A DNA stretch of 22,491 bases from the IMG/VR virus record IMGVR_UViG_3300009091_000064, positions 1-22,491 of that record; one strand, 5' to 3'. The translations under genes were made by a program, and so were the position numbers. The notes under the pieces are model-generated. The model was not told where the DNA came from. It searched no databases and was given only the letters and a program-made list of their open reading frames with translations. This document shows positions 3,029 through 20,276 of the stretch, piece after piece; the stretch's first letter is position 1, and each line of letters opens with the position of its first letter. Source of the DNA: a virus.

Positions 3029-3043
3029 CGATTGGATTACCGT

Positions 3044-6020: not shown

Positions 6021-8231
6021 ATGGCGCTCTTCAAGGTGTCCACCTACGAGGGTCGCGTCAACCCCAGCAGTCGGCGGTTGGTCGCGGAGGCGTCGGAGCA
6101 GCGCAACGGCGTAGCAGTTATCCGTCGGGCCTCCGCAGACGGCAGCAAGTCTAGTACCGGTACCATCATCAAGCGCGGTGGAGTGGCCGGACCTGCCTCT
6201 ACTCCTGGCGGGGGTCTCGCCGCCCCGGGCGGTCTGCGCACGCCGTCGACCATCCGTAACCAGACCGGCAACCCCCTACTAGACAACTCGCTGGTCGACT
6301 ACTGGATCCCCATCGATCCGGTCGGGCTGCACCAGCTGTGGCGCCGCATCTACCTGCGCGATCCGATCTGCGGTCCTGCCATCGACTTCTTCCGCGAGCT
6401 ACCGTGGTCGGAGTGGACGCTGTCGGGCGTGGACGACAAGCTACTGCAGCGCTACGACGACACGCTGCATCGGATCAACCTGTTGGGGTGGTTGCCTGAG
6501 TTCTCCGGCGACTTCCTGGTGCTGGGCAAGGGCTGCCTGCACCTACTGTGGGATCGTACCAAGGGCGAGTGGAAGGATCTCATCATCCACGATCCCGACC
6601 ACATCGAAGTCAGCATCGTGCCGCTAGTCAACCAGCCCATCAAGGTGGACCTGAAGCCCACGCCCGCCCACCAAGCGTTCATTTTGTCGCCCGATCCCCG
6701 CGACCAGATGGCGCGCAAGGAGATGGACCCCAACATCATCCGCATGATCATGAGCGGGGAGCCCATTCCTCTGGATCCACGCAACACCCTGTACCTACCG
6801 CGCCGCGCGTTCCCCTACGACGTCGAAGGGGTGTCGCTGTTCTCCCGCGTCATCTACTTCGTCGCCCTCGAACGGCCGCTGTTCACTGCGTCGATCTTGG
6901 CCGCACGCCGGCGTGCCGGTCCCGTCACACACATCGCCGCGGGCAACGAAGAGTGGGAGCCAACCAACGAAGAACTGGACGCGCTCGCCCTCGCGTACAT
7001 GGAGTCCGAGGAAGATGCGGTGTCCGCCGTCTTTGCCACCCGCAACGACGTGCAGGTCAACCGCGCGGTATCGTCGCTGCAAGCTGACCTGTGGAAGATC
7101 AACGACGAATCACAGTTCATCTCGGAAGGCAAGATGCGCGCGCTGGGCATCAACGATGCCTTCCTCGCTGGCGACGCCTCCATCAATACCACCGAAGCCG
7201 CCACCTCAGTATTCCTTGAGCGCATCCGCGCCCATCGGCGGCTGATGACCGAGCGCGTGATCCAGGACAAGATCTTCAAGGAGATGGCCCGCGCCAATCG
7301 CTGGATCAAGCGCACGCCGGCCGAGATCGCCCACCACGTACGCGAGGACTCAGATGAGCAGGCGGCCCGGGACGACAAGCGGCTGGCCATTCCTATCGTC
7401 AACTGGACCAAGTCGCTCAAGCCCACCGCCGACGAGCAGCTGATCAACCTGATGCGGCAGGCGCAGGAATGGGGTCTACCCATCACCATCCGTGACCTAG
7501 CTTCAGCTACCGGTATCGACATCGACGGCGTACTCAGCGATCAGACCGAAGAGGCTGAGCTACGTACGAAGATCAAGACGTGGCAGGACACGATGCAGAA
7601 GACCGGCATCACCATCGGCGCCATGTCACCCGGCGGTGAGGGTGGGGGTGGCATGATGCCGCCGGGTGGGGGTGGCGAGATGCCCGGCATGCCGCCCGAG
7701 GGGCCACCGGCAGGCGGCGAGGCTCCCGGCGGTGAGGGCGGTGAAGCCCCCGAGGGCCTGGCGACCGCCGCCTCCTTCGGTGGTGACATTGAGGACGCGG
7801 TCCAACAACGAGTAGCGGCGTTGCCTATTTGGAACGACACGGGCCGCTGCGTCAATGTGCATCGGGATCAGCTGCGCGAGCTACTGCACCGACCTGAGAT
7901 GCAGCAGAAGCTGGCCCGTGGCATCACTTGGCAGGCACTGCAGAAGCACCTGCGGGATGGCTACACCTTCACCGAGCGCGAAACCGAGGTCATTGGCTAC
8001 GCGCTACACCGCGTCGGACTGGTACCCGACTTTGTAGTACCGCCCGGTTTCGCCCGCGCGGTCATGCAGAGTTGCGGCCGTGATCTGGATAACAACGCCG
8101 GGCTGTTCCGCGAGCTGCAGTACATGGAACGCTTCAGTACCGTACGCCGGCGCCTGGACTCCGCCGGCGCTAACGCCCGCCTCAAGCGCGAACTGGCCAT
8201 CCCCAGCCGCCGCCTCTATACCGGCTTCTAG
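6021..8231 (+). CDS. Portal protein
   Basis: A 736-residue portal protein, the dodecameric ring at the head vertex through which DNA is packaged and ejected. Support: length, position just downstream of terL, and portal-like blocks such as WIPIDPVGLHQLWRRIYLRD, the PICGPAIDFFRELPWSEW segment, an FLVLGKGCLHLLWDR strand, YLPRRAFPYD...VSLFSRVIY, and the helical LERIRAHRRLMTERVIQDKI stem region. A Gly/Pro/Met-rich flexible segment at about residues 532-580 separates the core from a C-terminal helical domain of about 150 residues, an extension beyond a minimal portal. The Shine-Dalgarno is GGGA 6 bases before ATG 6021. The specific portal family was not searched. Confidence 0.88.
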   Translation: MALFKVSTYEGRVNPSSRRLVAEASEQRNGVAVIRRASADGSKSSTGTIIKRGGVAGPASTPGGGLAAPGGLRTPSTIRNQTGNPLLDNSLVDYWIPIDPVGLHQLWRRIYLRDPICGPAIDFFRELPWSEWTLSGVDDKLLQRYDDTLHRINLLGWLPEFSGDFLVLGKGCLHLLWDRTKGEWKDLIIHDPDHIEVSIVPLVNQPIKVDLKPTPAHQAFILSPDPRDQMARKEMDPNIIRMIMSGEPIPLDPRNTLYLPRRAFPYDVEGVSLFSRVIYFVALERPLFTASILAARRRAGPVTHIAAGNEEWEPTNEELDALALAYMESEEDAVSAVFATRNDVQVNRAVSSLQADLWKINDESQFISEGKMRALGINDAFLAGDASINTTEAATSVFLERIRAHRRLMTERVIQDKIFKEMARANRWIKRTPAEIAHHVREDSDEQAARDDKRLAIPIVNWTKSLKPTADEQLINLMRQAQEWGLPITIRDLASATGIDIDGVLSDQTEEAELRTKIKTWQDTMQKTGITIGAMSPGGEGGGGMMPPGGGGEMPGMPPEGPPAGGEAPGGEGGEAPEGLATAASFGGDIEDAVQQRVAALPIWNDTGRCVNVHRDQLRELLHRPEMQQKLARGITWQALQKHLRDGYTFTERETEVIGYALHRVGLVPDFVVPPGFARAVMQSCGRDLDNNAGLFRELQYMERFSTVRRRLDSAGANARLKRELAIPSRRLYTGF

Positions 8232-8355: not shown

Positions 8356-9801
8356 ATGTCGGACAAGTTCAATGTCGGTCTGGTGATCCGTAGTCTGGAT
8401 CAAATCACCACGCAGCTGGAGCGGCTGCAAACTGCACCATCCGTGGTGCACGATGCCGCTATGCCACCACCTCGTGGTCCCAGTCACGTGGATCTTACCG
8501 ATACCGAATGGGCGATGTACCAGACGGTAGCCGACTACCGCACCGACGACTTCGCCGATGCAGGGAAGATCCTAACCTACCTCAAGGCCCGCTTGGGCTA
8601 CCACCGGCTGGAGCCGGGACAGCAAGTCACCATCACCTTCCGTCGTCACGGCAGCGACGTGCTGCTGCAGCCGTTCGATGGACGCAAGGCCAACGTGCTG
8701 GCGGTAGATCAGCACGGCCGCGCGTGGGTGCAGTTCGCGGACGATGCATGGAAGCACGCGGTGACCGTAGGTAAGGCACACGGTCCCGCGGCCACCGCCG
8801 GCGTGTCCCCCTACGAAGCCTCGGTCTACGACAACGTGGACGCCAAGCGCAAGGCGCTGCGGGTAGACCCGCTGGACACCCGCGAATACCTCACGCAGCT
8901 GACCCATCTGGGCTTCCATGCTCCAACTACCCCCAAGCTGGCGGCGATCGATCCGGCCCTGCAACCGGAGCCAGAAGCTACGCCTAGCGCGAGTTCCCCG
9001 ACCGACGATTCTAGCAGTAGCAGTGACGACTCTACGCCGGATGATGGGGCCGACGACGAGTCGGACGGATACTTCTACGACCCGCTGGTCCGCGACCTAC
9101 CGGATGTGTCGCGCGAGCAGTACCTCTATGTCATCAAGAACCTCAACGACTTCGGGTTGGGTGACTGGGCACCCGCCGAAGAGCACGTGCTGCAAGCGCA
9201 CACGGGAGGCCCCATGCGAACGCTAAGTGAGATCGATCAGCTGCTGGTGAAGCTGGCCGCGGACAAGAAGCCCAAGGCGAAGAAGCCGGATCCGCGCGAT
9301 CCCAGTCCCGAGCGCGGGCCGCGGTACCTCACTGGGCATGGGGCCAAGATCTGGGAGTCGATGTTTGAGATCCCGCACGTCAAGCAGTACATCGAGGGCG
9401 GGGACAACCCGGGGCACAAGTGGGCACGCGCGTTCTCCTCGATGATGGCGCACCACGAGCACCTCACCAAGACCACCGGCAAGTTCAAGCCGGTGATGAA
9501 GAACTGGGACGAGAAGAAGCACCAGGAGTGGGCAGGCAAGACGGCGCTGCGCAAGCGCAAGCACGGTAAGCGGTTGAAGGCGTTGGGCGAGCACTTCCAG
9601 GGCGAGGCCAATGCCCATGCGGCGCAGGAAGAGCAGAAGCGCAACTTCGGCGGGCAGTACCGCAAGAAGCCGCACCATCCGTGCGCGCACGGCTACAAGC
9701 AGTCGCGCAAGGATCCGTCGCTGTGTGTGAAGAAGGGTCAGCGCGCGTCCTACGTCGGCAAGAAGCGTAAGGCCGCTGAGTCCGTCACCTGGGCATGGTG
9801 A
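8356..9801 (+). CDS. Unassigned protein with acidic Ser/Asp linker and basic Cys-containing tail
   Basis: A 481-residue modular protein. The N-terminal ~200 residues form an alpha/beta region with a VTITFRRHGSDVLLQPFDG...RAWVQFADDAWK segment that could be a small beta-barrel. Residues about 205-240 are a low-complexity acidic linker rich in Ser, Asp and Pro. Next comes a helical segment (YLYVIKNLNDFGLGDWAPAE) and from about 305 a strongly Lys/His/Arg-rich tail suited to nucleic-acid binding. The tail ends with a Cys pair (C-A-H-G-Y...L-C-V-K) reminiscent of the Cys pair in the tagged genes at 9812 and 12283. It has no N-terminal tag. The family is not recognised; it may be an internal head or DNA-binding protein. 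Confidence 0.75.
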   Translation: MSDKFNVGLVIRSLDQITTQLERLQTAPSVVHDAAMPPPRGPSHVDLTDTEWAMYQTVADYRTDDFADAGKILTYLKARLGYHRLEPGQQVTITFRRHGSDVLLQPFDGRKANVLAVDQHGRAWVQFADDAWKHAVTVGKAHGPAATAGVSPYEASVYDNVDAKRKALRVDPLDTREYLTQLTHLGFHAPTTPKLAAIDPALQPEPEATPSASSPTDDSSSSSDDSTPDDGADDESDGYFYDPLVRDLPDVSREQYLYVIKNLNDFGLGDWAPAEEHVLQAHTGGPMRTLSEIDQLLVKLAADKKPKAKKPDPRDPSPERGPRYLTGHGAKIWESMFEIPHVKQYIEGGDNPGHKWARAFSSMMAHHEHLTKTTGKFKPVMKNWDEKKHQEWAGKTALRKRKHGKRLKALGEHFQGEANAHAAQEEQKRNFGGQYRKKPHHPCAHGYKQSRKDPSLCVKKGQRASYVGKKRKAAESVTWAW

Positions 9802-9811
9802 GGGATCTCCC

Positions 9812-10201
9812 ATGGACACGCCCCAGCAGATCAAGTTCCACGGGCAGCTCTACGTGCTGGCGGCCACCAAGCACAAGAAGTGCCCCAAGGGCCAGCACTG
9901 GAACGATGCCGAGCGTAAGTGCGTAAAGCTACCGGCGAGCATTGCGCACGCTAGTGCGCGGGCTTTCAAGCTGTCGGCCAGGGCCGACGCACTGCACGAT
10001 GTCGTACCGTCGGCCAAGAACGGGTGGAACCACCACAAGCTGGTGGCGCACCGCCGCGCCGTCAAGGCACACGAACACGCCTCAGCCGCGGCGTACGATA
10101 ACGGGTTCAGTACCTTGGCGCACGCGCACAGCCAGAAGCAGGATGCGCACGACGCGGTGATCAAGTCCATGACCCACTACAACCCGGATCGGGACTACTA
10201 G
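9812..10201 (+). CDS. Tagged protein 1: CPxGQHWN Cys pair plus His/Ala-rich helices
   Basis: 129 residues. The tag is IKFHGQLYVLA (residues 7-17). It is followed at once by a Cys pair, C24-PKGQHWN-x5-C37, a short motif also in the tagged protein at 12283 with identical Cys spacing. The remainder is a His/Ala-rich helical region (NHHKLVAHRRAVKAHEHASA, then HAHSQKQDAHD) like those in the genes at 12283 and 15326. The Shine-Dalgarno GAGGGA overlaps the TGA of the upstream gene. Function unknown; the His-rich helices could bind metal or pack as a helical hairpin. Confidence 0.85.
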   Translation: MDTPQQIKFHGQLYVLAATKHKKCPKGQHWNDAERKCVKLPASIAHASARAFKLSARADALHDVVPSAKNGWNHHKLVAHRRAVKAHEHASAAAYDNGFSTLAHAHSQKQDAHDAVIKSMTHYNPDRDY

Positions 10202-10209
10202 GAGCGATC

Positions 10210-10629
10210 ATGGCCGCCCCAAAGATCATCAAGTACAAAGGCCAGCTGTACCGCCGTGCTGGCTACATGGGCATGGAGCACTGGACGGCATCGGACACCG
10301 CGGCCGATCTGATGAGCGACGTGCGTGATGCGGCGGCCAAGATCCTCGCCAAGGCCATCAACGTCGATCACGGCCCCTACAACACGCCCGGCGCCATCAA
10401 CGTGCTGCTGTGTGCCGAGGCCCTGTTCGGCAAGGAAGCCATCGATCACGGTGAGGATCTGGCGGAGATCGTGGGCAAGGCCCTGAACAAGGTCATAGCG
10501 CTACGGGACAAGGCCACCCAGCAGCTGGCGAAGCTGCAGGGCGCTGACACCGACAACACCAAGGGCTTCATCAAGGATCTGAACGCGGTGGGCAAGCGCG
10601 TGGCGCGCAAGTTCGGCCTCACCTACTAG
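10210..10629 (+). CDS. Tagged protein 2: helical body
   Basis: 139 residues. The tag is IKYKGQLYRRA (7-17). The body is predicted to be nearly all helix (ADLMSDVRDAAAKILAKAI, EDLAEIVGKALNKVIALRDK, FIKDLNAVGKRVARKFG), suggesting a small bundle. One Cys and no catalytic motif were seen. The upstream TAG stop and the Shine-Dalgarno are fused (TAGGAG), with the ATG 9 bases after the G of the stop, which suggests translational coupling. Family not recognised. Confidence 0.85.
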   Translation: MAAPKIIKYKGQLYRRAGYMGMEHWTASDTAADLMSDVRDAAAKILAKAINVDHGPYNTPGAINVLLCAEALFGKEAIDHGEDLAEIVGKALNKVIALRDKATQQLAKLQGADTDNTKGFIKDLNAVGKRVARKFGLTY

Positions 10630-10637
10630 GAGCGCGC

Positions 10638-10970
10638 ATGAGCACGGTACCTACACGGATCAAGTACCAGGGCCAGATCTACAAGCTAGCGGCCACGAAC
10701 CGTCTCGGCACGCGATGGCAGTGGACCGCGCATCCCGATCCGCAGGGCGGTCCCGGTATGGTGTATGCTATCGAACTGCCGCCCAAGCATCCCAGCAACG
10801 CGTTGGCGTTTCGCGTAGCGCCGCATCCGGACGACAAGAGCAAGTGGACCTGCGACCGCCACGCCTACCTGACCTGGGAGACCTTCATCGACGGTCCCTT
10901 CGCCACGCCGCAAGCCGCCGCGCAAGCGTGCGAACAAGCGTTCAAGCAGCACAACTGGCCGAAACCCTAG
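10638..10970 (+). CDS. Tagged protein 3: small alpha/beta body
   Basis: 110 residues. The tag is IKYQGQIYKLA (8-18), one of the most typical copies. The body has aromatic beta-like segments (RWQWTAHPD, MVYAIELPP, LAFRVAPHPDDKSKWTCD, AYLTWETFIDGPFA) and a terminal helix (PQAAAQACEQAFKQH), compatible with one small alpha/beta domain. The TAGGAG stop/Shine-Dalgarno arrangement at its start matches that of the gene at 10210. Function not recognised. Confidence 0.85.
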   Translation: MSTVPTRIKYQGQIYKLAATNRLGTRWQWTAHPDPQGGPGMVYAIELPPKHPSNALAFRVAPHPDDKSKWTCDRHAYLTWETFIDGPFATPQAAAQACEQAFKQHNWPKP

Positions 10971-10980
10971 CGAGGACTTC

Positions 10981-11253
10981 ATGCGCGCACCGCAGCAGAT
11001 CAAGTACAAGGGTCACATCTACAAGCGGGCCGAGATCGATGAGAAGCGTGCCCTCGCCCTGACCACCAAACTGCTGCAGCAGCTGGGGGCGGCCAAGACC
11101 ACCGCCGAGCAGTTGGGCAAGACCTCTCCGGTTGGCACCGAGGTCACGCGGCTGTCCGAAGGCGTCATCACCGCGTTGTTGCAGGCGCAGAAGGTGCTGG
11201 GGATCAGCGCTGGCGTGCTGTGGCCGGAGCAGCGCTGGCCGAGCGGCAAGTAG
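10981..11253 (+). CDS. Tagged protein 4: small helical body
   Basis: 90 residues. The tag is IKYKGHIYKRA (6-16). The body is helical (ALALTTKLLQQLGAAKTTAE, then VTRLSEGVITALLQAQKVLG) with a short Trp/Pro end. The central S-P-x4-V/L-x2-L-x3-V pattern resembles the end of the tagged protein at 11598, so these two bodies may be distant relatives. CGAGGA lies just before the ATG. Function unknown. Confidence 0.82.
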   Translation: MRAPQQIKYKGHIYKRAEIDEKRALALTTKLLQQLGAAKTTAEQLGKTSPVGTEVTRLSEGVITALLQAQKVLGISAGVLWPEQRWPSGK

Positions 11254-11280
11254 TACCCCGCCGACAAGAAGGGACTAACT

Positions 11281-11595
11281 ATGAGCAAGGCACCGACGCA
11301 GATCAAGTACCAGGGGCGCATCTACAAGCGGGCCTTCGACGACGAAGCCATGGCGCCGGAACTGAAGTCCTTGAAGGAACTGGTAGGCCAAGCTACGCCA
11401 CCCAACGTCTTCAAGATCAAGGTGGACGGGCAGCTGCGGGTATACCGCCACGGCTCCTCAACCAGCGCCAACTTCATCGAGAAGCGGCCGGGCGTGGAGC
11501 GGTGGTCGTGCTACGACCGGGATATCCCCGCCGACAAGGCTCAGGTAGCTTGCACCACGATGATGGCCACGGCCAAGTTCTCTAGTCGGAGGTAG
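11281..11595 (+). CDS. Tagged protein 5: small alpha/beta body
   Basis: 104 residues. The tag is IKYQGRIYKRA (8-18). After a helix (APELKSLKELVGQA) comes a beta-rich part (NVFKIKVDGQLRVYRHG, ANFIEKRPGVERWSCYDRD) and a short helix. It resembles a compact single domain of unknown family. An AAGGGA Shine-Dalgarno lies in the 27-base gap. The next ATG begins 3 bases after its stop, with GGAGG inside this gene's last codons. Confidence 0.82.
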   Translation: MSKAPTQIKYQGRIYKRAFDDEAMAPELKSLKELVGQATPPNVFKIKVDGQLRVYRHGSSTSANFIEKRPGVERWSCYDRDIPADKAQVACTTMMATAKFSSRR

Positions 11596-11597
11596 CT

Positions 11598-11975
11598 ATG
11601 AGCGCGCCGCAGCTGATCAAGTACCAGGGTCAGGTCTACAAGCTGGCCACCGACGACGACACCGTCTACTGCGAGAAGTGCGGTCGGCCGCTGAGCGATG
11701 CCGAGGCCGCGGAAGCGGTCGACGTCAACCACGAGATGTGGTGCAAGCAGTGCGCGGCCAAGGCGGGCAAGCACGCGACGGTCAAGCAGGCCGATCGCGA
11801 CCTGCAGGCCACTCGGGAGCTAGAGAAGGCCTTGATGCAGGCCAGCAGTGAAGCCGTACACCTCCTGCACTCGCAATCGCCGACCAGTGAGCTGGCCAAG
11901 CTAGGCAAGGAGGTCGCAGCTCATCTCGGCGCAGCGATCAATCTGGTGATCAGCTTTCAGGACAAGCACAAGTAG
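11598..11975 (+). CDS. Tagged protein 6: zinc ribbon plus helical bundle
   Basis: 125 residues. The tag is IKYQGQVYKLA (7-17). A zinc-binding CxxC-x20-CxxC follows (C25, C28, C49, C52; YCEKCGRPL, then MWCKQCAAKAG), like a treble-clef or zinc-ribbon finger. The rest is helical (ADRDLQATRELEKALMQASS, then SELAKLGKEVAAHLGAAINL). A structural zinc in a small cargo protein could mean nucleic-acid or protein binding; no specific function is shown. It is tightly coupled to the preceding gene. Confidence 0.86.
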   Translation: MSAPQLIKYQGQVYKLATDDDTVYCEKCGRPLSDAEAAEAVDVNHEMWCKQCAAKAGKHATVKQADRDLQATRELEKALMQASSEAVHLLHSQSPTSELAKLGKEVAAHLGAAINLVISFQDKHK

Positions 11976-11982
11976 TCCAACC

Positions 11983-11998
11983 CGCCGCTGCGGCGGCG
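11983..11998 (+). other. GC hairpin in gap before the gene at 12016
   Basis: CGCCGC (11983-11988) pairs with GCGGCG (11993-11998) around a TGCG loop, 8 bases after the TAG of the tagged zinc-ribbon gene. Only two T residues follow directly, so it is at most a weak terminator or an RNA-processing or attenuation element. Confidence 0.35.
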
Positions 11999-12015
11999 TT
12001 GAAGGGAGACGATCC

Positions 12016-12267
12016 ATGGCGAACGGTAACGGCAACAAGATGTACAAGATCGACAGCACGAAGGCCCTGCCCTCGTTCGGCAGCAAGCCAGGCGCCGGCA
12101 AGGGCAGCACCGGGCAGCGCAGCGTCCACGACAGCTTCAAGGTGGCTCCCGGCGCTGCGGTCCCGCCCAAGCCGCCCAAGGGCATCAACCCCAACGCGCC
12201 CGGCAGCGCCAACAAGGTCTACACCAGCAAGCCGGGCATCGCCGGGCCGCTGCCGCGCAACAAGTAG
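12016..12267 (+). CDS. Small basic low-complexity protein without tag
   Basis: 83 residues, rich in Gly, Pro, Lys, Ser and Ala (SFGSKPGAGKGSTGQRS, APGAAVPPKPPKGINPNAPG), probably disordered. No tag, Cys or catalytic motif is present. AAGGGAGA precedes the ATG at good spacing, supporting translation. It is one of two untagged genes in the array. A scaffold-, DNA- or capsid-binding peptide is possible; function unknown. Confidence 0.75.
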   Translation: MANGNGNKMYKIDSTKALPSFGSKPGAGKGSTGQRSVHDSFKVAPGAAVPPKPPKGINPNAPGSANKVYTSKPGIAGPLPRNK

Positions 12268-12268
12268 T

Positions 12269-12299
12269 ACTCCAGGATCGCGGTGCGTACTCCTGGAGT
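12269..12299 (+). promoter_or_regulatory. Inverted repeat enclosing ribosome binding site and GTG start
   Basis: ACTCCAGGA (12269-12277) and TCCTGGAGT (12291-12299) form a perfect 9-bp inverted repeat with a 13-base loop. The Shine-Dalgarno AGGA (12274-12277) is in the 5' arm and the GTG start codon (12283-12285) is in the loop. The RNA hairpin could mask the ribosome binding site, opened when upstream ribosomes translate across it or by a regulator. Confidence 0.5.
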
Positions 12300-12762
12300 C
12301 ATTGCGTACCGTGGCTATCGCTACGTGCTAGCTACTGAGCACGCGCGGTGTCCTACGGGCCAGCACTGGAACGAGCCGCAGCATAAGTGCTGGCCGGTTG
12401 CGGGCTACCTGCCGTCGGGTAAGCCGGTGTTCGTACCCAAAGGCCTCGGAGTGATGACCCGCCTGCATCGTGATGCGCTGGCTATGGAAGGCGACATCTA
12501 CGCACAGCGACAGATGGTAGGCTTGCGACGACTGGTGTATAAGGATGCGCGCAAGCACGTCGCACGCCATCACGATGACTTCTCCCATCGTGACCACTTG
12601 GATGCGCGGAATCTGTACTACCGCAAGGCCAAGGACGCACGGGCGGCAGGCAAGCCGGCCCAAGCCAAGGCATACCACAGCCTGGGGTTGGCGCACGAGC
12701 AGCATTCGGTAGATAAGCTACTACGGGTAGCGCCCCAGTTGGTGCACGAGGTCATGCGGTAA
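12283..12762 (+). CDS. Tagged protein 7: CPxGQHWN Cys pair plus His/Ala-rich helices
   Basis: 159 residues from a GTG start. The tag is the divergent IAYRGYRYVLA (7-17). A Cys pair follows, C23-PTGQHWN-x5-C36, then GYLPSGKPVFVPKG, which parallels the SGKPIYAP segment in the gene at 15326, then a long helical part with DDFSHRDHLDARNLYYRKAK and AKAYHSLGLAHEQH. That part belongs with the His/Ala-rich bodies at 9812 and 15326. The start lies inside the hairpin at 12269-12299. Its TAA stop overlaps the next ATG (TAATG). Confidence 0.84.
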   Translation: MRTPGVIAYRGYRYVLATEHARCPTGQHWNEPQHKCWPVAGYLPSGKPVFVPKGLGVMTRLHRDALAMEGDIYAQRQMVGLRRLVYKDARKHVARHHDDFSHRDHLDARNLYYRKAKDARAAGKPAQAKAYHSLGLAHEQHSVDKLLRVAPQLVHEVMR

Positions 12763-13043
12763 TGCTACCCCGCACGATCCGCTACCACGGTATGCGCTAC
12801 CATCTGCACACCGGCCTATTTGGGCTGGGGGCGCCGGCCGTGCAGCCCGACTGGACGGTGGCCTACCAGAGCGCCGCGGAGTTGCAGAAGCAGGCGTACA
12901 AGTTGTACCGCGCGGCGCAAGAACTGCAGCGGCAGATAACGCAGCAGACCCCCATGGCCAAGCGCCTGGGGCTGCGAGTGCAGACCCAGCTAGCACAGCT
13001 GGTCGAGCAGCTGAAGCAGGTACTGCAACACACCCCAGTGTAG
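12762..13043 (+). CDS. Tagged protein 8: divergent tag, Gln-rich helical body
   Basis: 93 residues. The divergent tag IRYHGMRYHLH (5-15) keeps Pro, Ile, Tyr, Gly and Tyr but lacks the final Ala. The body is helical and Gln-rich (SAAELQKQAYKLYRAAQELQ, then TQLAQLVEQLKQVLQ), a plausible coiled-coil hairpin. It starts in a TAATG overlap, so it is probably translated by re-initiation. Function unknown. Confidence 0.8.
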   Translation: MLPRTIRYHGMRYHLHTGLFGLGAPAVQPDWTVAYQSAAELQKQAYKLYRAAQELQRQITQQTPMAKRLGLRVQTQLAQLVEQLKQVLQHTPV

Positions 13044-13053
13044 GAGTGCGACC

Positions 13054-13344
13054 ATGAGCACCACAGCACCGACGCACATCAAGTACCGCGGCCAGCTGTA
13101 TCGCCGGGCGGATGCCGGGCAGTATGCCACCCCCGCGGCCGGGATGATCCGCGCGCTGACGGCCCCGGGGTTTCGCAACGTGAAAGCCGACGTGATCGCC
13201 AGCTTCATCGAATATGGCAACGCGGGTGGCCCGCCGATCCCGCCTGCTACTCGCCTGGCTCAGGTGAACGCCGCCGCCAAGTTGCTGCGGGATCTGGTCT
13301 TGCACTACGGCGAGATGCAGGCGGCGGAACGCGACGAGTTGTAG
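13054..13344 (+). CDS. Tagged protein 9: small mostly helical body
   Basis: 96 residues. The tag is IKYRGQLYRRA (8-18). The body has helices (AAGMIRALTAPGF, VKADVIASFIEYGN, LAQVNAAAKLLRDLVLHYGE) around a Gly/Pro turn. No Cys or catalytic residues stand out. The gene follows a TAGGAG fused stop/Shine-Dalgarno and ends at another. Function not recognised. Confidence 0.83.
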   Translation: MSTTAPTHIKYRGQLYRRADAGQYATPAAGMIRALTAPGFRNVKADVIASFIEYGNAGGPPIPPATRLAQVNAAAKLLRDLVLHYGEMQAAERDEL

Positions 13345-13352
13345 GAGTATCC

Positions 13353-13706
13353 ATGAGCCTGACACCAGCGCAGATCAAGTACCGAGGCCGCATCTACAAG
13401 CAGGCGGCCGTGCGCATCTCCAAGCTACGGGTGGACGACAGCCACCGCGCCGGCGGCGCCGAGCAGACCAGTCGGCTGTTCGTCTGGATCGACAACGAGA
13501 AGGTGCTCGACAACCTGCACGACCGGTACAAGCGACCGTGGCAGTTGTGGAAGGCCGAGGTGCTGCCACAGGTCTTCAAGCGGCTGAAGCTGCCGCGGGA
13601 CACCCTGACCAAGTGGTCCCAGACCGCCGGCTGCAGTTGTGGTTGCAGTCCCGGCTTCATCGTCTACGACGGCAAGAATCAGGACTACCACGTGTTCGTG
13701 AGCTAA
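13353..13706 (+). CDS. Tagged protein 10: GCSCGCSPGF-containing body
   Basis: 117 residues. The tag is IKYRGRIYKQA (8-18). The body begins with RLFVWIDNEKVLDNL, then a basic helix (LPQVFKRLKLPRDTLTKW), then the striking GCSCGCSPGFIVYDG (C94, C96, C98) and a final strand. This Cys-rich signature seems familiar from other phage hypothetical proteins, but I cannot name a family. Clustered Cys suggests metal binding. The start follows a TAGGAG junction. Confidence 0.85.
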   Translation: MSLTPAQIKYRGRIYKQAAVRISKLRVDDSHRAGGAEQTSRLFVWIDNEKVLDNLHDRYKRPWQLWKAEVLPQVFKRLKLPRDTLTKWSQTAGCSCGCSPGFIVYDGKNQDYHVFVS

Positions 13707-13717
13707 CCGAGGTTGTC

Positions 13718-14089
13718 ATGCGCACAGCACCGAAGCAGGTCAAGTATCGCGGGCAGATCTACAAGCTAGCCACGCCCACCGATCCCATTGACGTGTGGAT
13801 CGCGGCCAATGGCAACGTGCTAGCCCGGTCCCTGGCTAAGCTACTGCAGCAACAGCTAGAGCGGGCGTACGACTTCAAGTTCGAGCCGCACCACGCGCAG
13901 ATGCTGCCGCAGTTCCTGCAGTGGGTGCTGTTCGCGCTGCCCAACGCGCCCGCGCCGGCCGGCTTGCCCCCGTACCTCAGAAACCGCGCCAGGGTGCTAG
14001 ACGGTCTACGTACCTGGGCTGACGACGCCTACGCGGTAGTGCTGGGCAGCGAACTAGATCCTGAGACCGGCGAGCCGAAGCAGAAGTGA
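13718..14089 (+). CDS. Tagged protein 11: helical body
   Basis: 123 residues. ATG 13718 is chosen because the tag (VKYRGQIYKLA, 8-18) begins right after it and CGAGG lies upstream, although the frame is open farther upstream inside the previous gene. The body is helical and Leu/Gln-rich (ARSLAKLLQQQLERAYDFKF, QMLPQFLQWVLFALPNAP, RARVLDGLRTWADDAYAVVL). No motif of known function is present. Confidence 0.83.
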   Translation: MRTAPKQVKYRGQIYKLATPTDPIDVWIAANGNVLARSLAKLLQQQLERAYDFKFEPHHAQMLPQFLQWVLFALPNAPAPAGLPPYLRNRARVLDGLRTWADDAYAVVLGSELDPETGEPKQK

Positions 14090-14096
14090 GGCGTTG

Positions 14097-14480
14097 GTGA
14101 CGCAACCAGCCATACTGCTATATCAGGGCCAGGAGTACGTTCGGGTAGCGTCGCTACCCGGGCCGCACGATCTGTACCTGACACCGCACGGGAGTGGGCT
14201 GGAAGTGTACGTGCCAGATGCGACGCATCCCGACGGTATCATGATCGGGTACACGCAGCCGGTCCCTCACCCCCGGCACATCAAGCTGCCAGAGTTGTGG
14301 AGCTTCAAGCCCGACGGCAAGCCCGCGTGGTGGGGACCGCTGACGCGGCTGGAAACCCGCGATCCCACTACCGATCCGCGGGACTTCTTGCAGGAGCTGA
14401 AGAAGATGCACGCCGTCGCCGACGCCATCACTGGCGTGTGGCTGTGGCCCGAGAATCAGCCGCCGCGAAAACTGTTGTAG
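14097..14480 (+). CDS. Tagged protein 12: divergent tag, Pro/Trp-rich body
   Basis: About 127 residues from GTG 14097; TTG 14094 is possible but too close to the GAGG at 14088-14091. The tag is divergent, LLYQGQEYVRV, and the usual Lys/Arg after the first aliphatic is Leu. The body is rich in Pro, His and Trp (DLYLTPHGSGLEVYVPD, LPELWSFKPDGKPAWWG) with a C-terminal helix (RDFLQELKKMHAVADAI). Function unknown. Its TAG runs into GGGAGA before the protease gene. Confidence 0.78.
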   Translation: MTQPAILLYQGQEYVRVASLPGPHDLYLTPHGSGLEVYVPDATHPDGIMIGYTQPVPHPRHIKLPELWSFKPDGKPAWWGPLTRLETRDPTTDPRDFLQELKKMHAVADAITGVWLWPENQPPRKLL

Positions 14481-14490
14481 GGAGACCGTC

Positions 14491-15294
14491 ATGCTCTACG
14501 CACCGGAAGACATCCTGGCAGGACCAAGCATCCGCAAGACCTCGGACTTCGCGGATAGCTACCACCTGTTCGCCCAGGCGGGCATGCCCGTAGTGCGCAC
14601 CTTCGATCTGCACTACTTCAAGACCGAGCAGGACATGACGGGCAACCTGCGGCTGGCCGATGCGCAGGGCTTCAAGGTGCCGTACGACCGGCCGGTGGAT
14701 CTGTCGCGGCTCAAGATCGCGGCCGAGACCTACAACATCAGCCCCGACTACCGCGACTACATCGCGTCCGAAGTACCCATCGTCACCGCCGACGTGCCCA
14801 ACCGCAACATGGACGCGTTCTCGTTCTCCGAGCTGACCTTCTACAACCCGCTGTACGGCTGCTGCTCGTACCAGACGTTCGTGGGCAAGGGCGTGCACCT
14901 GCAGCACGACAACCAGGATCCGAAGAAGGCCAAGGGCATCATCCTCGATGCCGCCATGCGCAAGGTGGGGCACAACTGGCACGTGATGATCCTGCTAGCG
15001 TGCGACCGCACCAAGGATCGCCAGCTGGTCGAGGAGATCGTGCGCAACCCCATCACCGGGTGGTCGATGGGCGCGCTGGTGTCGTACACCACCTGCTCCG
15101 TGTGTGGCTTCCGCTCCAACGGTAAGGTGTTCTGCGAACCGCACATCGGCCGCAACGGGTCGAAGAAGGGCCGCATCTTCGACGGTCGCATCGCCTACGA
15201 GCAGTGCCACCTCGTCAACTTCATCGAGACCAGCAAGGTCAAGAACCCCGCTGACATCAACGCCTACTCGGAAGAGAAGCTCTTCCTGGCCTGA
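14491..15294 (+). CDS. Prohead (capsid maturation) protease
   Basis: 267 residues. The pattern fits the serine-type head maturation proteases of tailed phages (T4 gp21-like / HK97-type assemblin fold): a His in GVHLQHDN (H136/H139), then a Ser in ITGWSMGALV (S192) about 50 residues later, and a closing FIETSKVKNPADINAYS block. Such enzymes cleave scaffold, capsid and internal proteins during maturation. Unusual is a putative zinc site right after the catalytic Ser: C202-x2-C205-x9-C215-x2-H218. It carries no tag but sits within the tagged array, upstream of the scaffold-like and capsid genes. GGGAGA precedes ATG 14491. Catalytic residues are assigned by pattern only. Confidence 0.85.
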   Translation: MLYAPEDILAGPSIRKTSDFADSYHLFAQAGMPVVRTFDLHYFKTEQDMTGNLRLADAQGFKVPYDRPVDLSRLKIAAETYNISPDYRDYIASEVPIVTADVPNRNMDAFSFSELTFYNPLYGCCSYQTFVGKGVHLQHDNQDPKKAKGIILDAAMRKVGHNWHVMILLACDRTKDRQLVEEIVRNPITGWSMGALVSYTTCSVCGFRSNGKVFCEPHIGRNGSKKGRIFDGRIAYEQCHLVNFIETSKVKNPADINAYSEEKLFLA

Positions 15295-15325
15295 TCCGTA
15301 CATTTCAGCATAGGAGCTGCTGACC

Positions 15326-15730
15326 ATGAGCACACCGCAGCAGATCAAGTACCAGGGGCAGATCTACGTGTTGGCGGCTGAAGGGCCAGTCACCGTCGGC
15401 CCGCGGGGTGGGAAGATCATCGGCAAGACCAAGAGCGGCAAGCCGATCTACGCGCCATCGTCAGACATCGTGGGGCGCGGGGCCTACGTCGTACCTACGG
15501 AGTTGTCGCAGGCGCACATGGCCCAGCATGCGGACTTTACCGCAGCTGATCACCGCGACGCCGCTGCGCTGCACACCCAGCACGAGGCGCGCCATCGGGC
15601 ACTGGCGATAAAGCACCTGGGGCAGGATAACCCGGACAGCATCCAGCGGGGCTACCGGCACATGGACCGGGCGTCGGCGCACAGCCATGTTGCCTACCTC
15701 CACCAGCAGCAGGCCAAGGCCAGTAAGTGA
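15326..15730 (+). CDS. Tagged protein 13: GPRGGK segment plus His/Ala-rich helices
   Basis: 134 residues. The tag is IKYQGQIYVLA (7-17). Residues about 22-44 hold VTVGPRGGKIIGKTKSGKP and then IYAP, a short module I have seen in phage head-associated proteins, but I cannot assign a function. A His/Ala-rich helical region follows (HADFTAADHRDAAALHTQHE, then HMDRASAHSHVAYLHQQQAK), matching the D-F-x3-D-H-x-D-A pattern of the gene at 12283. AGGAG lies 9 bases before ATG 15326. Confidence 0.86.
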   Translation: MSTPQQIKYQGQIYVLAAEGPVTVGPRGGKIIGKTKSGKPIYAPSSDIVGRGAYVVPTELSQAHMAQHADFTAADHRDAAALHTQHEARHRALAIKHLGQDNPDSIQRGYRHMDRASAHSHVAYLHQQQAKASK

Positions 15731-15740
15731 CGAGGCTACC

Positions 15741-16250
15741 ATGACCGCACCGCGAACCCTCCGCTACCAAGGGCAACTGTATGTACGCGCGCAGCTGGAC
15801 TCGCCGGCGGCGTGGTTTGCTGACCTCGTCACCGCGTGTCGCGGCAAGCCGTTCAAGCCGGTGGGCAACGAGCGCAAGGCCGTGATCGGGCAGTTCGGTG
15901 GCGCCGCTGTGCACGTCGCGCTTCTAGAGGACTTCGTGGTGGTAGACATGGCCTTTGGCCGAGTGTACCACATGTGGCAGAACCGCACGCACGTAGCCGA
16001 GGACGGCATGGTCGAGGCCAGTGGTGGCTGGTCCGCCGAGATGGGCGATACGCCACCCACCGAATGGGATCTAACCGGCTTGCACGGCGGCGGGCGTACC
16101 AGCGCGGGTAGCGGTAAGATCACAGTGACCAACGGTCAAGAGCTGCTGGGACACATGGTGTCGTGGAAGACCAAGCTGAAGCGCTACTCGGCGAAGGGCG
16201 ACTTCGGCAACCTCATGGAGCAGAAGGAACACGCCCAGCGCGGCTGGTGA
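15741..16250 (+). CDS. Tagged protein 14: larger alpha/beta body
   Basis: 169 residues, the longest N-terminally tagged member. ATG 15741 is chosen because the tag follows (LRYQGQLYVRA, 7-17) and CGAGG precedes. The body has beta-rich segments (KAVIGQFGGAAVHVALLEDF, VVVDMAFGRVYHMWQNRTHV), a Gly/Thr-rich loop and a basic C-terminal helix. No family is recognised. Its tag is closest to those at 16255 and at the C-terminus of the peptidase at 17245 (APRTL type). Confidence 0.84.
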   Translation: MTAPRTLRYQGQLYVRAQLDSPAAWFADLVTACRGKPFKPVGNERKAVIGQFGGAAVHVALLEDFVVVDMAFGRVYHMWQNRTHVAEDGMVEASGGWSAEMGDTPPTEWDLTGLHGGGRTSAGSGKITVTNGQELLGHMVSWKTKLKRYSAKGDFGNLMEQKEHAQRGW

Positions 16251-16254
16251 CAGC

Positions 16255-16548
16255 ATGCTCGCCCCCAAGACCCTACGCTACCAGGGGCAGCTGTACGTGA
16301 TGGCGTCGTGGGAGACGGGCCTCACGCCCCAGCAGATCGAGGGCATCAAGTCGCTCAAGCCGGTCTCGATTAGCACCGATCCCAAGGAGGGCGCCATCTT
16401 GGTGTGGCTGCGCTCCGAGCGGGAGTGTGAGCGCGCGGCCGATCACTTTGACCTGCACAAGTACGAGTTCAACGAGGTGGAAGTTCGCCTCAGTTGTGCT
16501 GCCACCAACTGGGAACCTACCCACCTAGCGCTGTACCCGCGAACGTAG
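16255..16548 (+). CDS. Tagged protein 15: small alpha/beta body
   Basis: 97 residues. The tag is LRYQGQLYVMA (7-17). The body shows a helix (TPQQIEGIKSLKPV), a strand (GAILVWLRSE), a helix (RECERAADHFDLH) and a strand (FNEVEVRLSCAATNW), a likely two-layer alpha/beta domain. It starts 5 bases after the preceding TGA with no strong Shine-Dalgarno, so it probably depends on coupling. Function unknown. Confidence 0.82.
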   Translation: MLAPKTLRYQGQLYVMASWETGLTPQQIEGIKSLKPVSISTDPKEGAILVWLRSERECERAADHFDLHKYEFNEVEVRLSCAATNWEPTHLALYPRT

Positions 16549-16556
16549 GAGTCGCC

Positions 16557-16853
16557 ATGCGCACCCCAACCCAGATCAAGTATCGGGATCGCATCTACAA
16601 GCGTGCCGAAGGTGACTGGCCACTCCCGTGGAAGCGCATCGCGGCCAACTCGTGGGAGTATGAGGGCCGCCGCGCGCACGTCATCGCACGGCAGGGAAAA
16701 CCGGGGTACTACGACTTGACCGCTACCGCCGGCGGCGTCACCTTCTACACCGCCCGCAAGCTGTTCGCCCCCAGTTCCGCTACCGTATGGCATCTGCAGC
16801 ACCTGGGCGAGTTCATCGGCTCGCAGGGACCGTGGCTAGGGCATGGAGCGTAG
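16557..16853 (+). CDS. Tagged protein 16: small beta-rich body
   Basis: 98 residues from ATG 16557, after a TAGGAG junction. The tag IKYRDRIYKRA (7-17) is the only copy in which the turn Gly is replaced (Asp). The body is beta-like (WEYEGRRAHVIARQGKPGYY, LTATAGGVTFYTARK) with a helical end (SATVWHLQHLGEFIG). Function not recognised. It ends 3 bases before the next start. Confidence 0.82.
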   Translation: MRTPTQIKYRDRIYKRAEGDWPLPWKRIAANSWEYEGRRAHVIARQGKPGYYDLTATAGGVTFYTARKLFAPSSATVWHLQHLGEFIGSQGPWLGHGA

Positions 16854-16855
16854 AC

Positions 16856-17248
16856 ATGACCGCACCGACACAGATCAAGTACCGGGGTAAGCTGTATCGC
16901 CTGGCGGCGTCGACTCCGGCGCCGTATCCCCGTTCGCCCAAGGAAGTCATGGTGGGCGTCAATCAGATGCATGCAGGGTTGTCACCGCTAGCCACGGCGC
17001 TTGCGGCAATGAAGGTCCATACGGAGCAGCTTAGTCGGCTGCTGTGGCAGATCGAGCAAATTGCTACCGATCCTTACCGCAAGATCTACAAGGATTGGCC
17101 GCAACGGGGAGAGGGCGAGTCCAAAGACCCACGAGCGCACTTCGTGGCCATGGGCGAGGTCATCGACCAGTTCAACGAAGCCAGCGACAAGCTGAAGGCC
17201 GTGCTCAAGAAGAACTTCGCCAAGGTCGAGTACCTGGCCGGCAAGTGA
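16856..17248 (+). CDS. Tagged protein 17: helical body
   Basis: 130 residues from ATG 16856. The tag is IKYRGKLYRLA (6-16). The body is helical (KEVMVGVNQMHAGLSPLATA, QLSRLLWQIEQIATDPYRK, VIDQFNEASDKLKAVLKKNF), like a four-helix or coiled-coil unit. The Shine-Dalgarno GGAG lies just before the TAG of the previous gene. Its stop overlaps the GTG start of the metallopeptidase (GTGA), so the two are probably translationally coupled. Function unknown. Confidence 0.84.
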   Translation: MTAPTQIKYRGKLYRLAASTPAPYPRSPKEVMVGVNQMHAGLSPLATALAAMKVHTEQLSRLLWQIEQIATDPYRKIYKDWPQRGEGESKDPRAHFVAMGEVIDQFNEASDKLKAVLKKNFAKVEYLAGK

Positions 17249-17772
17249 GTTCTACCTACTCCATCGTACGTGATCTACCCTCCGGCCACCACCCACTACT
17301 GACGGTACTCCCCGACCTCGCCACCTGTCCGCTACTGCCGCACATCGTGGGCCGCCGCCGCGACCTGCTAGCGCAAGTGGTGGTGCACATCACACCGTCA
17401 CCGTGCATCTGCCACGTCGATACTACCGAACCCAGCATCGTCATCGATCCCAGCTACTACCACACAGCAACCCCCGCAGACCTGTACTTGGATGTGCTGC
17501 ACGAGTTGACGCATCTGCGGCAACACCTAGACGGGCAGGACATCTGGGACGACCACCTGCCGTACGAACAGCGGCCCACTGAGATTGAGGCGTTCGCGAT
17601 CGCAGTGCTGGAAGCCCAGCGGCGCGGCCTGTCGGAGGCGGCAATCCTGGCCTACCTACGTCAACCGTGGCTGACGGAAGTTGCCGTGCAGCAGCTGCGC
17701 GCCAACATCGCCACGTTTCTAGCGCCTCGCACCCTCCTACGGCAGGGGCAGTGCTACCGCCGGCGCGGGTAG
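17245..17772 (+). CDS. HExxH metallopeptidase-like protein with C-terminal tag
   Basis: 175 residues from GTG 17245, which overlaps the upstream TGA; the longer open frame upstream runs through the previous gene and is rejected. LDVLHELTHLRQH contains the zinc motif H86-E87-x2-H90, and a downstream TEIEAFA (E113/E115) could give the third ligand, as in gluzincin-type peptidases. No signal peptide or membrane segment is seen. The last 16 residues (APRTLLRQGQCYRRRG) match the APRTL-type tag found at the N-terminus of the gene at 15741; this is the only copy at a C-terminus. Substrate unknown: a virion cargo peptidase, a maturation factor or an injected effector are all possible. Confidence 0.8.
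   Translation: MSSTYSIVRDLPSGHHPLLTVLPDLATCPLLPHIVGRRRDLLAQVVVHITPSPCICHVDTTEPSIVIDPSYYHTATPADLYLDVLHELTHLRQHLDGQDIWDDHLPYEQRPTEIEAFAIAVLEAQRRGLSEAAILAYLRQPWLTEVAVQQLRANIATFLAPRTLLRQGQCYRRRG
17722..17769 (+). repeat. C-terminal copy of the array tag
   Basis: These 16 codons encode the final residues of the metallopeptidase-like protein. Compared with the tag at 15741 (APRTLRYQGQLYVRAQ), identities are A, P, R, T, L, Q, G, Q, Y and R; the first Tyr is Arg and the final Ala is Arg. A remnant of a decayed downstream tagged gene fused in frame is another explanation. Confidence 0.6.
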
Positions 17773-17959: not shown

Positions 17960-19342
17960 ATGGCCAAGGACAAGAAGCTGAAGAAGAAGATCCAGAAGAC
18001 GGCAGCCGCCGACCTCGACATCGATGTGCTGCAGTCCAAGCGTGCAGACGAAGTGCCGCCCCCGCCGGCGGACGACCAGGGCATCGTCACGCCGCCCGAG
18101 TCCGAAGTCACGGCACTACCGGATGACGACGAGTCGTCCGACGACAGCAGCGACGACAGCAGTGAGCAGCCCGCACCAGTCGCCGCCGATGATGACGACA
18201 GCGACAGCGACGACGAGGACGCGGAGGAGTCCGCCGCGGGTCCGACCTACGCCGGTCCCGAGGTGCAGGAAGGCGATCCCAACCAGTCCCAGGCGCCGGC
18301 TAGCCCCGCCGCCCCGGGCGCGACGCCGCCCGTCGATCCGGGTGCCGCCAGCGACAGCAGCAGCGGCAGTGACCTGTCGGTGAGCAGCGACGAGATGGGC
18401 GCGCAGCAGCCCGGCGTCGGCGGCCCCGTAGACGATCCGACTACGCCGATTCCGGCCGAGGCGGGTGTGGATGAGATGATCATCCATCCTATCGCGGAGG
18501 TGCTGGACGAGAAGACGGCGTCACTGGAGATGTTCCTGTTCGACGCGCAGGGCAAGAACCCGGCGTGGATGGTCATCGCCAACGGCGACCCCTACGCCAA
18601 GATCTGCCTCACCGATCAGGAGAACCCGGAGCTGATCCGCCAGGCGTTCTGCGCGGACAGCTACGCCGACACCGTCATGGCCAATGCCAAGAAGCTGGGC
18701 ATGATGACGGTGCTGGCCGACGTCAAGGCCCGCTTCTACCACGCGCAGATCTTCAAGTCGCAGCTGGCCGAGACCCTCACCAAGAAGATCACGGCGAACG
18801 TCGAGAAGCGCGTCGCCACCGCCAACGACAAGTACAACGAGCGTGTTGCCGAGATGATGCACCTCGTCGTCAAGGCCGCCTCGGTCAACTTCTTCAAGGA
18901 TCCCGATCCGCTCAAGGCCGCCATGGTACAGGTCATGCGCGCCGCCGGCGTGGCCGATCCGACCGCCGCCATCGAGCAGCTGTTCGCGACCCACGCCCCC
19001 GAGTGGTTCAAGCGCGTGCTGGCCAAGGCCACCGAGTGGACCACCTTCGCCCCCGACGCCATGAAGCAGATCCGCGCCTCCATCGATGACATGGGCGTGC
19101 GCAGCGTCGACTACGTCGCCGCCGCGGCGCAGGATGCGCGGGATACCGCACGCCACGAAGTGGCCGCGCCGACGTCGATGGCGCTGGGCGTGCCCCTGGT
19201 CACCCAGGGACACCACAGCCGCAGCCTCGCGCCGCAGTCGGCCGGGGCGCGCGTGGCCGCCACGTCGGAGGAAGAGCAGCTGCGGCAGCAGTACCGCACG
19301 CGGCTCCAAGGACTCCGCCAGTCTCGCCGTACCGGCGAGTAG
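17960..19342 (+). CDS. Probable scaffolding / prohead core protein
   Basis: 460 residues. A short Lys-rich N-terminus (KDKKLKKKIQK) is followed by about 150 residues of acidic, Ser/Asp/Pro/Ala low-complexity sequence. A structured helical part comes next (LEMFLFDAQGKNPAWMVIAN, LAETLTKKITANVEKRVATA, YNERVAEMMHLVVKAASV), and a basic tail ends in RTRLQGLRQSRRTGE. Acidic and coiled-coil-rich composition, a basic C-terminus and the position between the protease and major capsid genes fit a scaffold that is degraded or expelled at maturation. No sequence family is recognised, so the role is inferred from context. It has the strongest ribosome binding site in the window. Confidence 0.65.
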   Translation: MAKDKKLKKKIQKTAAADLDIDVLQSKRADEVPPPPADDQGIVTPPESEVTALPDDDESSDDSSDDSSEQPAPVAADDDDSDSDDEDAEESAAGPTYAGPEVQEGDPNQSQAPASPAAPGATPPVDPGAASDSSSGSDLSVSSDEMGAQQPGVGGPVDDPTTPIPAEAGVDEMIIHPIAEVLDEKTASLEMFLFDAQGKNPAWMVIANGDPYAKICLTDQENPELIRQAFCADSYADTVMANAKKLGMMTVLADVKARFYHAQIFKSQLAETLTKKITANVEKRVATANDKYNERVAEMMHLVVKAASVNFFKDPDPLKAAMVQVMRAAGVADPTAAIEQLFATHAPEWFKRVLAKATEWTTFAPDAMKQIRASIDDMGVRSVDYVAAAAQDARDTARHEVAAPTSMALGVPLVTQGHHSRSLAPQSAGARVAATSEEEQLRQQYRTRLQGLRQSRRTGE

Positions 19343-19487
19343 GCACACCAGGATTTCCAGCTTTACCCCCAGGTTTAAGCCGCATTACTCGTAAGGCTGA
19401 ATTACCCACACGTTACCGTCGGCAGCCGCACCGCCTCACCCGCTTTACCGTCGTGATTAAGTCGCACGCTCCGTCATGGAGGACCAC

Positions 19488-20249: not shown

Positions 20250-20276
20250 CCGCGAGCCTGGGACAAGGAGACGATG

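Follow-up and report, generated by a model that had tools for sequence, protein, structure and literature searches.

Why should 17 otherwise dissimilar proteins, encoded side by side among the head genes of a virus, begin with the same short peptide? This question is raised by the virus record IMGVR_UViG_3300009091_000064, whose 22,491 bases are the whole stretch of DNA analysed here (the window). Between the portal and scaffold genes of the window, 17 small proteins, all in frame, open with the motif PxxIxYxGxxYxxA. In the following, this motif is called the tag and the remainder of each protein its cargo. Comparison with related records showed that the tag is a position-independent peptide module, which is gained and lost independently of its cargo, and that, among the records searched, it is restricted to a single lineage of large phages known from environmental DNA.

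Independence of tag and cargo

In the alignment of the 17 window tags, the proline, the last tyrosine and the first aromatic residue (Y or F) are each present in 17 of 17 copies. The glycine is kept in 16 and is replaced by aspartate in the gene that starts at 16557. At a threshold of 9 bits, 17 matches were observed in the real window, every one of at least 13 bits, compared with three matches summed over 100 residue-shuffles of the 502 window frames. The motif scan and the shuffle control bear out the 17 N-terminal copies described in the original prediction, which was made from the letters of the window. That prediction had counted 18 copies, with Pro in 18, Gly in 17 and Tyr in 18 of them. 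As counts by eye these numbers are right, since the eighteenth copy (APRTLLRQGQCYRRRG, at the C-terminus of the 17044-17772 frame) keeps the P, G and Y of the tag; by score it is unsupported, with 8.7 bits (E 2.1) in a model of the window tags alone and 1.3 bits in a broader model. When the tags were masked, the 17 proteins fell into 16 clusters at an E-value of 1e-3, in agreement with the predicted diversity of the cargo. The sole related pair, encoded by the genes at 9812 and 12283, has a CPxGQHWNxxxxKC stretch in common right after the tag.

The fetched stretches of ten related records, together with the window, contain 160 tags in 142 frames, and 158 tags in 140 proteins after two frames of fewer than 60 amino acids had been dropped. 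The N-terminal class holds 126 of the 158 tags, an upper bound, as every start codon close to a tag was accepted. A further 16 are internal, and 16 are found no more than 12 residues from the C-terminus. Six close tandem pairs were found in the 140 proteins at the cut-off used. After masking of the tags, the 140 proteins gave 88 similarity clusters, 65 of which are singletons. A single globular domain with an N-terminal hairpin, common to all members, was ruled out by these 88 clusters together with the C-terminal and tandem copies, so that the outcome named in the original prediction as contradicting it, a tag that is the first hairpin of one shared domain, did not hold.

Tags were also observed to come and go within families of related proteins. 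In G032 the tag is joined to a phosphatase-like protein and in G034 to a YHxT-type domain, and G035 carries both as adjoining genes. The fused protein of G001 runs from a tag through the phosphatase-like domain and an extra stretch of about 120 residues to a second tag directly before the YHxT domain. Relative to the first of the three sequences under comparison, the YHxT domains show 48-49% identity. Upstream of terminase, an encoded protein of about 370 amino acids has an internal tag in G003 and a variant of it, found by eye, in G032 and G033; at that site no tag was seen in G001, G002, G034, G035 and G037. In G032 and G033, a tag is also carried by a protein whose gene follows that of the portal, and its homologues in G001, G002, G031, G034, G035, G036 and G037 show no tag of at least 7 bits. 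For a tagged topoisomerase, Rhizobium phage RHph_N46 encodes a distant relative that lacks the tag (L014; 20% identity, E 2e-5). The split between tagged and untagged homologues is not always clean, because some of the 64 'untagged' matches carry degenerate tags below the cut-off. In three orthologous families, conservation of the tag is 0.43-0.53 versus 0.35-0.36 for the cargo. The ten records, the varied positions of the tag and the untagged cargo homologues strongly support the predicted combination of tag and cargo. Four adjoining tagged genes of G001 (L135:3897-5623, at 218-220 kb) share an IRVNG form of the tag and are possibly a paralogous or subtype cluster.

Short DNA matches do occur between tag copies, as would be expected if the copies had arisen as a DNA repeat or by recent duplication, or were the opening hairpin of a shared domain, and the tag had no function of its own. 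At identical residues of the 17 window tags, however, codon identity is 0.558 compared with 0.606 expected from codon usage (1124 comparisons). The flanking DNA has a mean pairwise identity of 0.29-0.31, which is near background except in the start-codon region, whereas the tag itself reaches 0.56. A DNA repeat or gene conversion was rejected on the basis of the synonymous-codon identity, which does not exceed the codon-usage expectation, and of the flanks near background. As the C-terminal, internal and tandem copies and the 88 cargo clusters contradict one common domain, we regard this whole explanation as extremely improbable.

Occurrence in one lineage of large phages

The first search, with a model that drew on nothing but the 17 window tags, covered 80 loci of terminase relatives and gave weak matches (best E 0.005-0.014) in the loci of three viruses, each of which was later found to carry several copies. 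A second search used 28 tags, 11 of them from those three viruses, against 37 whole records; at an E-value of at most 1, it gave 26, 25 and 6 matches in the three viruses and single weak matches in 3 of the 34 others. Further relatives were then added by a search with a portal alignment, and a final model of 75 tags, 12 of them from the window, was run against 31 records. Ten of the 31 have at least three matches at an E-value of at most 0.1 (42, 29, 24, 15, 15, 11, 9, 8, 5 and 3), 161 in total. One of the other 21 has a single match (E 0.066) and 20 have none. In this search the tag is absent from all eight named phage records of eight and from PaBG (G007). With these ten records the case for tag plus cargo goes beyond what could be seen in the window alone.

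In the stretches of the tagged lineage, 160 matches reach 9 bits, compared with one for the reversed model and 0-2 for five column-permuted models. Part of this contrast arises by construction, because 63 of the 75 tags in the model come from the relatives; their first discovery does not, as it was made with the window-only model. The fetched loci of untagged relatives gave one match of at least 9 bits and none of at least 13 bits in 27,473 frames. Over 110 distinct tags, the glycine is kept in 109, the last tyrosine in 110 and the proline in 89; 109 have I, L or V in column 6, and K, R, N, Q, H and M are the only residues in column 9. Since the model itself selected these tags, the figures are biased upward, and the 110 include at least one or two that look spurious (minus-strand frames of 33 and 48 amino acids). 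The tags are basic, with a mean net charge of +2.7 (103 tags).

Two DNA patterns, scanned over all viral contigs for exact matches only, gave 99 loci, 32 of which have a model match of at least 11 bits. Twenty of the 32 lie on contigs already known to be tagged. Of the other 12, four hold at least two tags (9, 6, 3 and 2), perhaps as parts of viruses already found or of relatives of these; the remaining eight have single weak matches of 11-12 bits. In four contigs outside the lineage (L258, L263, L269 and L280), near-identical frames of 74 amino acids contain one weak tag-like stretch (12.2 bits), probably by chance. A strict DNA pattern of the tag had no match in the viral contigs, among which the window's own record was perhaps not included. 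Single-sequence scans with the capsid protein and the terminase found nothing; alignment-based scans did reach relatives. A terminase scan of bacterial and archaeal genomes gave no match, nor did a tblastn search of named phages with a 20-residue consensus peptide, a query so short that it is insensitive.

The portal tree comprises 61 rows, rows more than 90% identical having been removed beforehand, G037 among them. The window and those of its tagged relatives that have a row fall into one supported set of 16 rows (99/96), which includes four untagged and two short unscored rows. The tagged relatives other than the window form, together with the two unscored rows, a clade with 100/100 support, and the untagged G030 falls outside. 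The window is distant from all rows of the tree, with a top identity of 36%. Judged from these portal sequences, a single origin of the tag is possible.

Genes of the window and types of cargo

The window is GC-rich (0.61-0.67), and its genes named here all lie on the plus strand, from terminase through major capsid protein. Its named relatives are large phages including PaBG, Lu11, NCTB and Rctr197k, mostly at about 29-40% identity. The terminase large subunit (3032..5206; phrog_17415, 2.2e-137) and the portal protein (6021..8231; phrog_16240, 7.2e-100) are followed by a Ser/Asp-rich protein for which no family was found (8356..9801). Next comes the run of small genes, which encloses the gene of the head maturation protease (14491..15294; phrog_18299, 4e-53), a protein without tag. 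Behind the run lie an acidic scaffold-like protein, so named from its position and composition (17960..19342), a virion structural protein (19476..20249; phrog_16710, 7.2e-7) and the major capsid protein (20274..21410; phrog_2522, 3.5e-43). The C-terminal part of the scaffold-like protein is common to the tagged relatives and to G030. Among the capsid matches, PV550095.1 (Alcaligenes phage Afa-NA1) and PV359490.1 (Salmonella phage Sen-NF) gave the identical result (32.7%, 3e-40); their differing host labels point to a possible labelling or assembly problem. In Virus Rctr197k (L019), several genes from terminase to capsid are annotated as misc_feature and not as CDS, and some are unusually long, perhaps due to inteins or broken genes.

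The first tagged protein (9812..10201) consists of the tag DTPQQIKFHGQLYVLAAT, then CPKGQHWNDAERKC and a His-rich part. It is followed by the second to fifth (10210..10629, 10638..10970, 10981..11253 and 11281..11595) and by the sixth (11598..11975), whose zinc-ribbon-like cargo gave weak Pfam matches to DUF6011 (4.2e-5) and Zn_ribbon_2 (8.5e-4), both under the curated cut-off. A small protein without tag (12016..12267) is encoded within the run. The seventh (12283..12762) has a GTG start and cargo related to that of the first, and in the eighth (12762..13043) the last alanine of the tag is replaced by histidine. The ninth (13054..13344) precedes the tenth (13353..13706), whose cargo contains cysteine. 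For the eleventh (13718..14089) the start was placed at 13718 and not at that of the longer 13538 frame, and the twelfth (14094..14480) starts with TTG at 14094 or GTG at 14097. Beyond the protease gene lie the thirteenth to fifteenth (15326..15730, 15741..16250 and 16255..16548), the sixteenth (16557..16853), which carries the aspartate in place of glycine, and the seventeenth (16856..17248). A last frame of the run (17221..17772), with the tag-like C-terminus seen by eye, has an uncertain true start, the longer frame being 17044-17772. It contains a HELTH (HExxH) stretch, which we take to be typical of zinc metallopeptidases.

Recognisable cargo includes type IB topoisomerase, found by Pfam in tagged proteins of two viruses (3.3e-12 and 9.3e-15) and tagged at the N-terminus in both (L135:6492-7994 in G001 and L131:16191-17702 in G002). 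Further Pfam matches are a cREC receiver domain (1e-24), AAA_33 (2.7e-9) and DUF5661, the last in 5 of the 121 tagged proteins of the relatives. Dual-specificity phosphatase matches in 3 of the 121 are weak and under the curated cut-off, and at least 83 of the 121 have no Pfam family at an E-value of at most 0.01. One of the 121 matches the PADLOC model CARF_PDDEXK_AAA at 8e-18, and PADLOC otherwise gave scattered weak matches. An 81-residue stretch (47%) recurs in one tagged protein of G001 and in the scaffold-like protein of G002. A GWTxxSxxxFW...FCASL-type stretch is common to the G002 scaffold-like protein (L132, frame from 5233) and the tagged protein L137:10992-11966.

The predicted structure of a 77-residue family (nine sequences; mean predicted local distance difference test score, pLDDT, 74.3) consists of two helices and leaves the tag without assigned structure; over the first 20 residues the pLDDT is about 43-51. 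The unstructured tag in this nine-sequence model would fit a peptide that folds only on binding, for which it gives weak support. The model of the YHxT...GL domain (three sequences, mean pLDDT 40.6) is too poor for use and draws the tag as a hairpin at about 46-54. The beta-hairpin that had been predicted for the tag was not confirmed by either model. Going by sequence motifs judged by eye, the YHxT...GL domain may be ADP-ribosyltransferase-like. Sequence searches of the PDB gave nothing convincing for this assignment, and the model of the domain is too poor to bear on it.

A possible address label for the phage head

What does the tag do? It seems somewhat probable to us that it is a short movable docking peptide that one head component recognises, by which the cargo is drawn into the prohead and some of it is ejected with the DNA. 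The tag would act as an address label, recognised during assembly by a head component of the same virus, such as the scaffold core, the inner capsid surface or the portal. Tens of unrelated tagged proteins would be drawn into the prohead in this way, and some might be carried along with the ejected DNA into the new host and act there. That the proteins are packed into or onto the head had been part of the original prediction, and gene position, conserved gene order and type of cargo agree with it. The modularity of the tag and the gene order are seen in the sequences themselves; that the cargo goes to the head, which protein receives it there and that it is ejected are inferences.

The gene order in the relatives is terminase, portal, tagged family i (73-83 amino acids), scaffold-like protein, protease, tagged family ii (about 250-295), tagged family iii (mostly about 160-200) and capsid protein. 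This order is complete in G001, G031, G034 and G037, and in G035 as far as the end of the record. That search missed one or two families each in G002, G032 and G033, and these were placed by cargo cluster, alignment or tag match. G036 fits the order as far as matched, and in G003 the portal, terminase and capsid genes sit at the two ends of the record. The fixed places of these three tagged families among the head genes count towards the head as destination. Of the 350 kb of G001, a 22-kb interval around the head genes holds 11 of the 32 tagged frames, where 2.0 would be expected (P 2e-6); the interval was picked after seeing the data, and the count covers only tagged frames in the fetched stretches. 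The topoisomerase IB cargo suits delivery into a host. The stretch that a tagged protein has in common with a scaffold-like protein, the stronger conservation of the tag than of the cargo and the precedent of capsid-targeting sequences in T4 and P1 also count for docking. Because the tag is independent of position and occurs in tandem, docking fits better than a cleaved propeptide.

Several observations weigh against the docking peptide. The window has the same head genes but no match at the blastp level to tagged families i, ii and iii. Of the 32 tagged frames of G001, 21 lie outside the 22-kb interval: some are clustered at 174-181 kb and at 218-221 kb, three closely precede terminase at 260-263 kb, and three stand singly; the cluster at 174-181 kb starts 2.6 kb past a DNA-ligase gene and 6.8 kb past an SbcC-like gene. 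G030 (L142, 188 kb) resembles the window in its portal (38%), protease (46%) and capsid protein (36%), and a scaffold is present, yet no tag was found anywhere in the whole record. The supposed receptor therefore need not be those head proteins as such, and G030 offers a natural untagged comparison for finding it. The tagged topoisomerase could act inside the infected cell. No protease motif follows the tag regularly, columns 17-18 being variable, unlike in T4. Finally, the ten tagged records are partly non-independent, with portals that are 91% identical in G032 and G033 and in G035 and G037.

The position of the G001 cluster behind the DNA-ligase gene, the topoisomerase in two viruses and the basic charge of the tags would also suit a peptide that gathers proteins inside the infected cell, at a replication site, on viral DNA or in a virus-made compartment, without being a packaging signal. 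We consider this unlikely, as three tagged families are fixed among the head genes. A search of 8 tagged records with the phiKZ nuclear shell protein gp54 (E-value of at most 0.001) gave no match in any of the 8, and phiKZ itself was matched; several of these records are fragments, and only sequence relatives of gp54 would be visible. Import in nucleus-forming phages is also reported to act via a recognition surface and not a linear signal (PMC11087766). Both points weaken a nuclear-import reading of the tag.

The gene neighbourhood and the small, varied domains would be equally expected if the tag bound the outer face of the capsid, or some other exposed surface, and the tagged proteins were decorations, and position independence might suit such a display as well. 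Against this stand the cargo that can be recognised, which includes DNA-acting enzymes and, weakly, a phosphatase, and the lack of a surface-binding domain among 25 of the 31 Pfam families from the 121 tagged proteins; decoration appears improbable to us. Still less probable is a tag that mainly serves as a processing site, at or beside which the head protease would cut to free cargo from precursors and fusions. Some tags are internal, one of them before a domain that is a separate gene elsewhere, and the protease gene sits among the tagged genes. However, a cut would free little where the tag stands at the N- or C-terminus of a small protein, as many do, and no fixed site was seen in the variable residues after the conserved alanine (columns 17-18).

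Taken further, the docking peptide could be a universal and position-independent packaging code. Any protein that gained a tag, whether at an end or between domains, would become virion cargo, each virus of the lineage would bring along a changing set of up to dozens of effectors for injection, and tandem tags would strengthen loading. We put this forward tentatively, as a proposal that falls slightly short of being probable. Should the tag be such a packaging address, sequence alone would suffice to list the probable virion cargo of large phages not yet in culture, a task that is otherwise hard, and a short portable peptide would be at hand for loading chosen proteins into phage heads. The set of tagged cargo would then be a candidate list of injected host-takeover and counter-defence proteins.

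A literature search, with most subscription papers outside its reach, found no description of such a tag. In the following comparisons, likeness is one of description and not of sequence. The capsid-targeting sequences of T4 on IPI-IPIII and Alt, the latter a packaged ADP-ribosyltransferase, are N-terminal propeptides of 10-20 residues on few proteins and are removed by gp21 (PMC5694885, PMC9958956). The tag resembles them as a short terminal peptide on several unrelated proteins in the presence of a dedicated head protease. It differs from them in its number, up to 42 matches per record, and in lacking their constant N-terminal place, as it is also C-terminal (16 of 158), internal (16 of 158) and tandem. 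In P1, the N-terminal 30 residues of DarB, which is packaged for delivery, suffice to send a reporter to the head, and no consensus among the N-termini of Dar proteins is reported there (PMC9024508), whereas one consensus is common to dozens of proteins here. In SPN3US and other phiKZ-type giant phages, N-terminal sequences of head proteins are thought to target the prohead, and two of these N-termini are identical; the propeptides are cleaved, several exceed 100 residues and few proteins carry them (PMC5694885). The tag is likewise mostly an N-terminal sequence on proteins of large phages and differs in its length and number of carriers. The cargo-loading peptide of encapsulins has about 10 residues, stands at either end of varied cargo and binds inside an HK97-fold shell, with cargo genes adjoining the shell genes; at most three cargos are named in one shell of this bacterial compartment (PMC7355545). 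The tag, too, is short and found at either end of varied cargo, but has 18 residues and belongs to phages. Few phage packaging signals are described in these sources, those of T4 and P1, and none there is common to so many proteins. Going by the sequences, a targeting peptide as such would be of a known kind, and its function here is a proposal; what appears to be new is the scale, the placement and the sequence of the tag.

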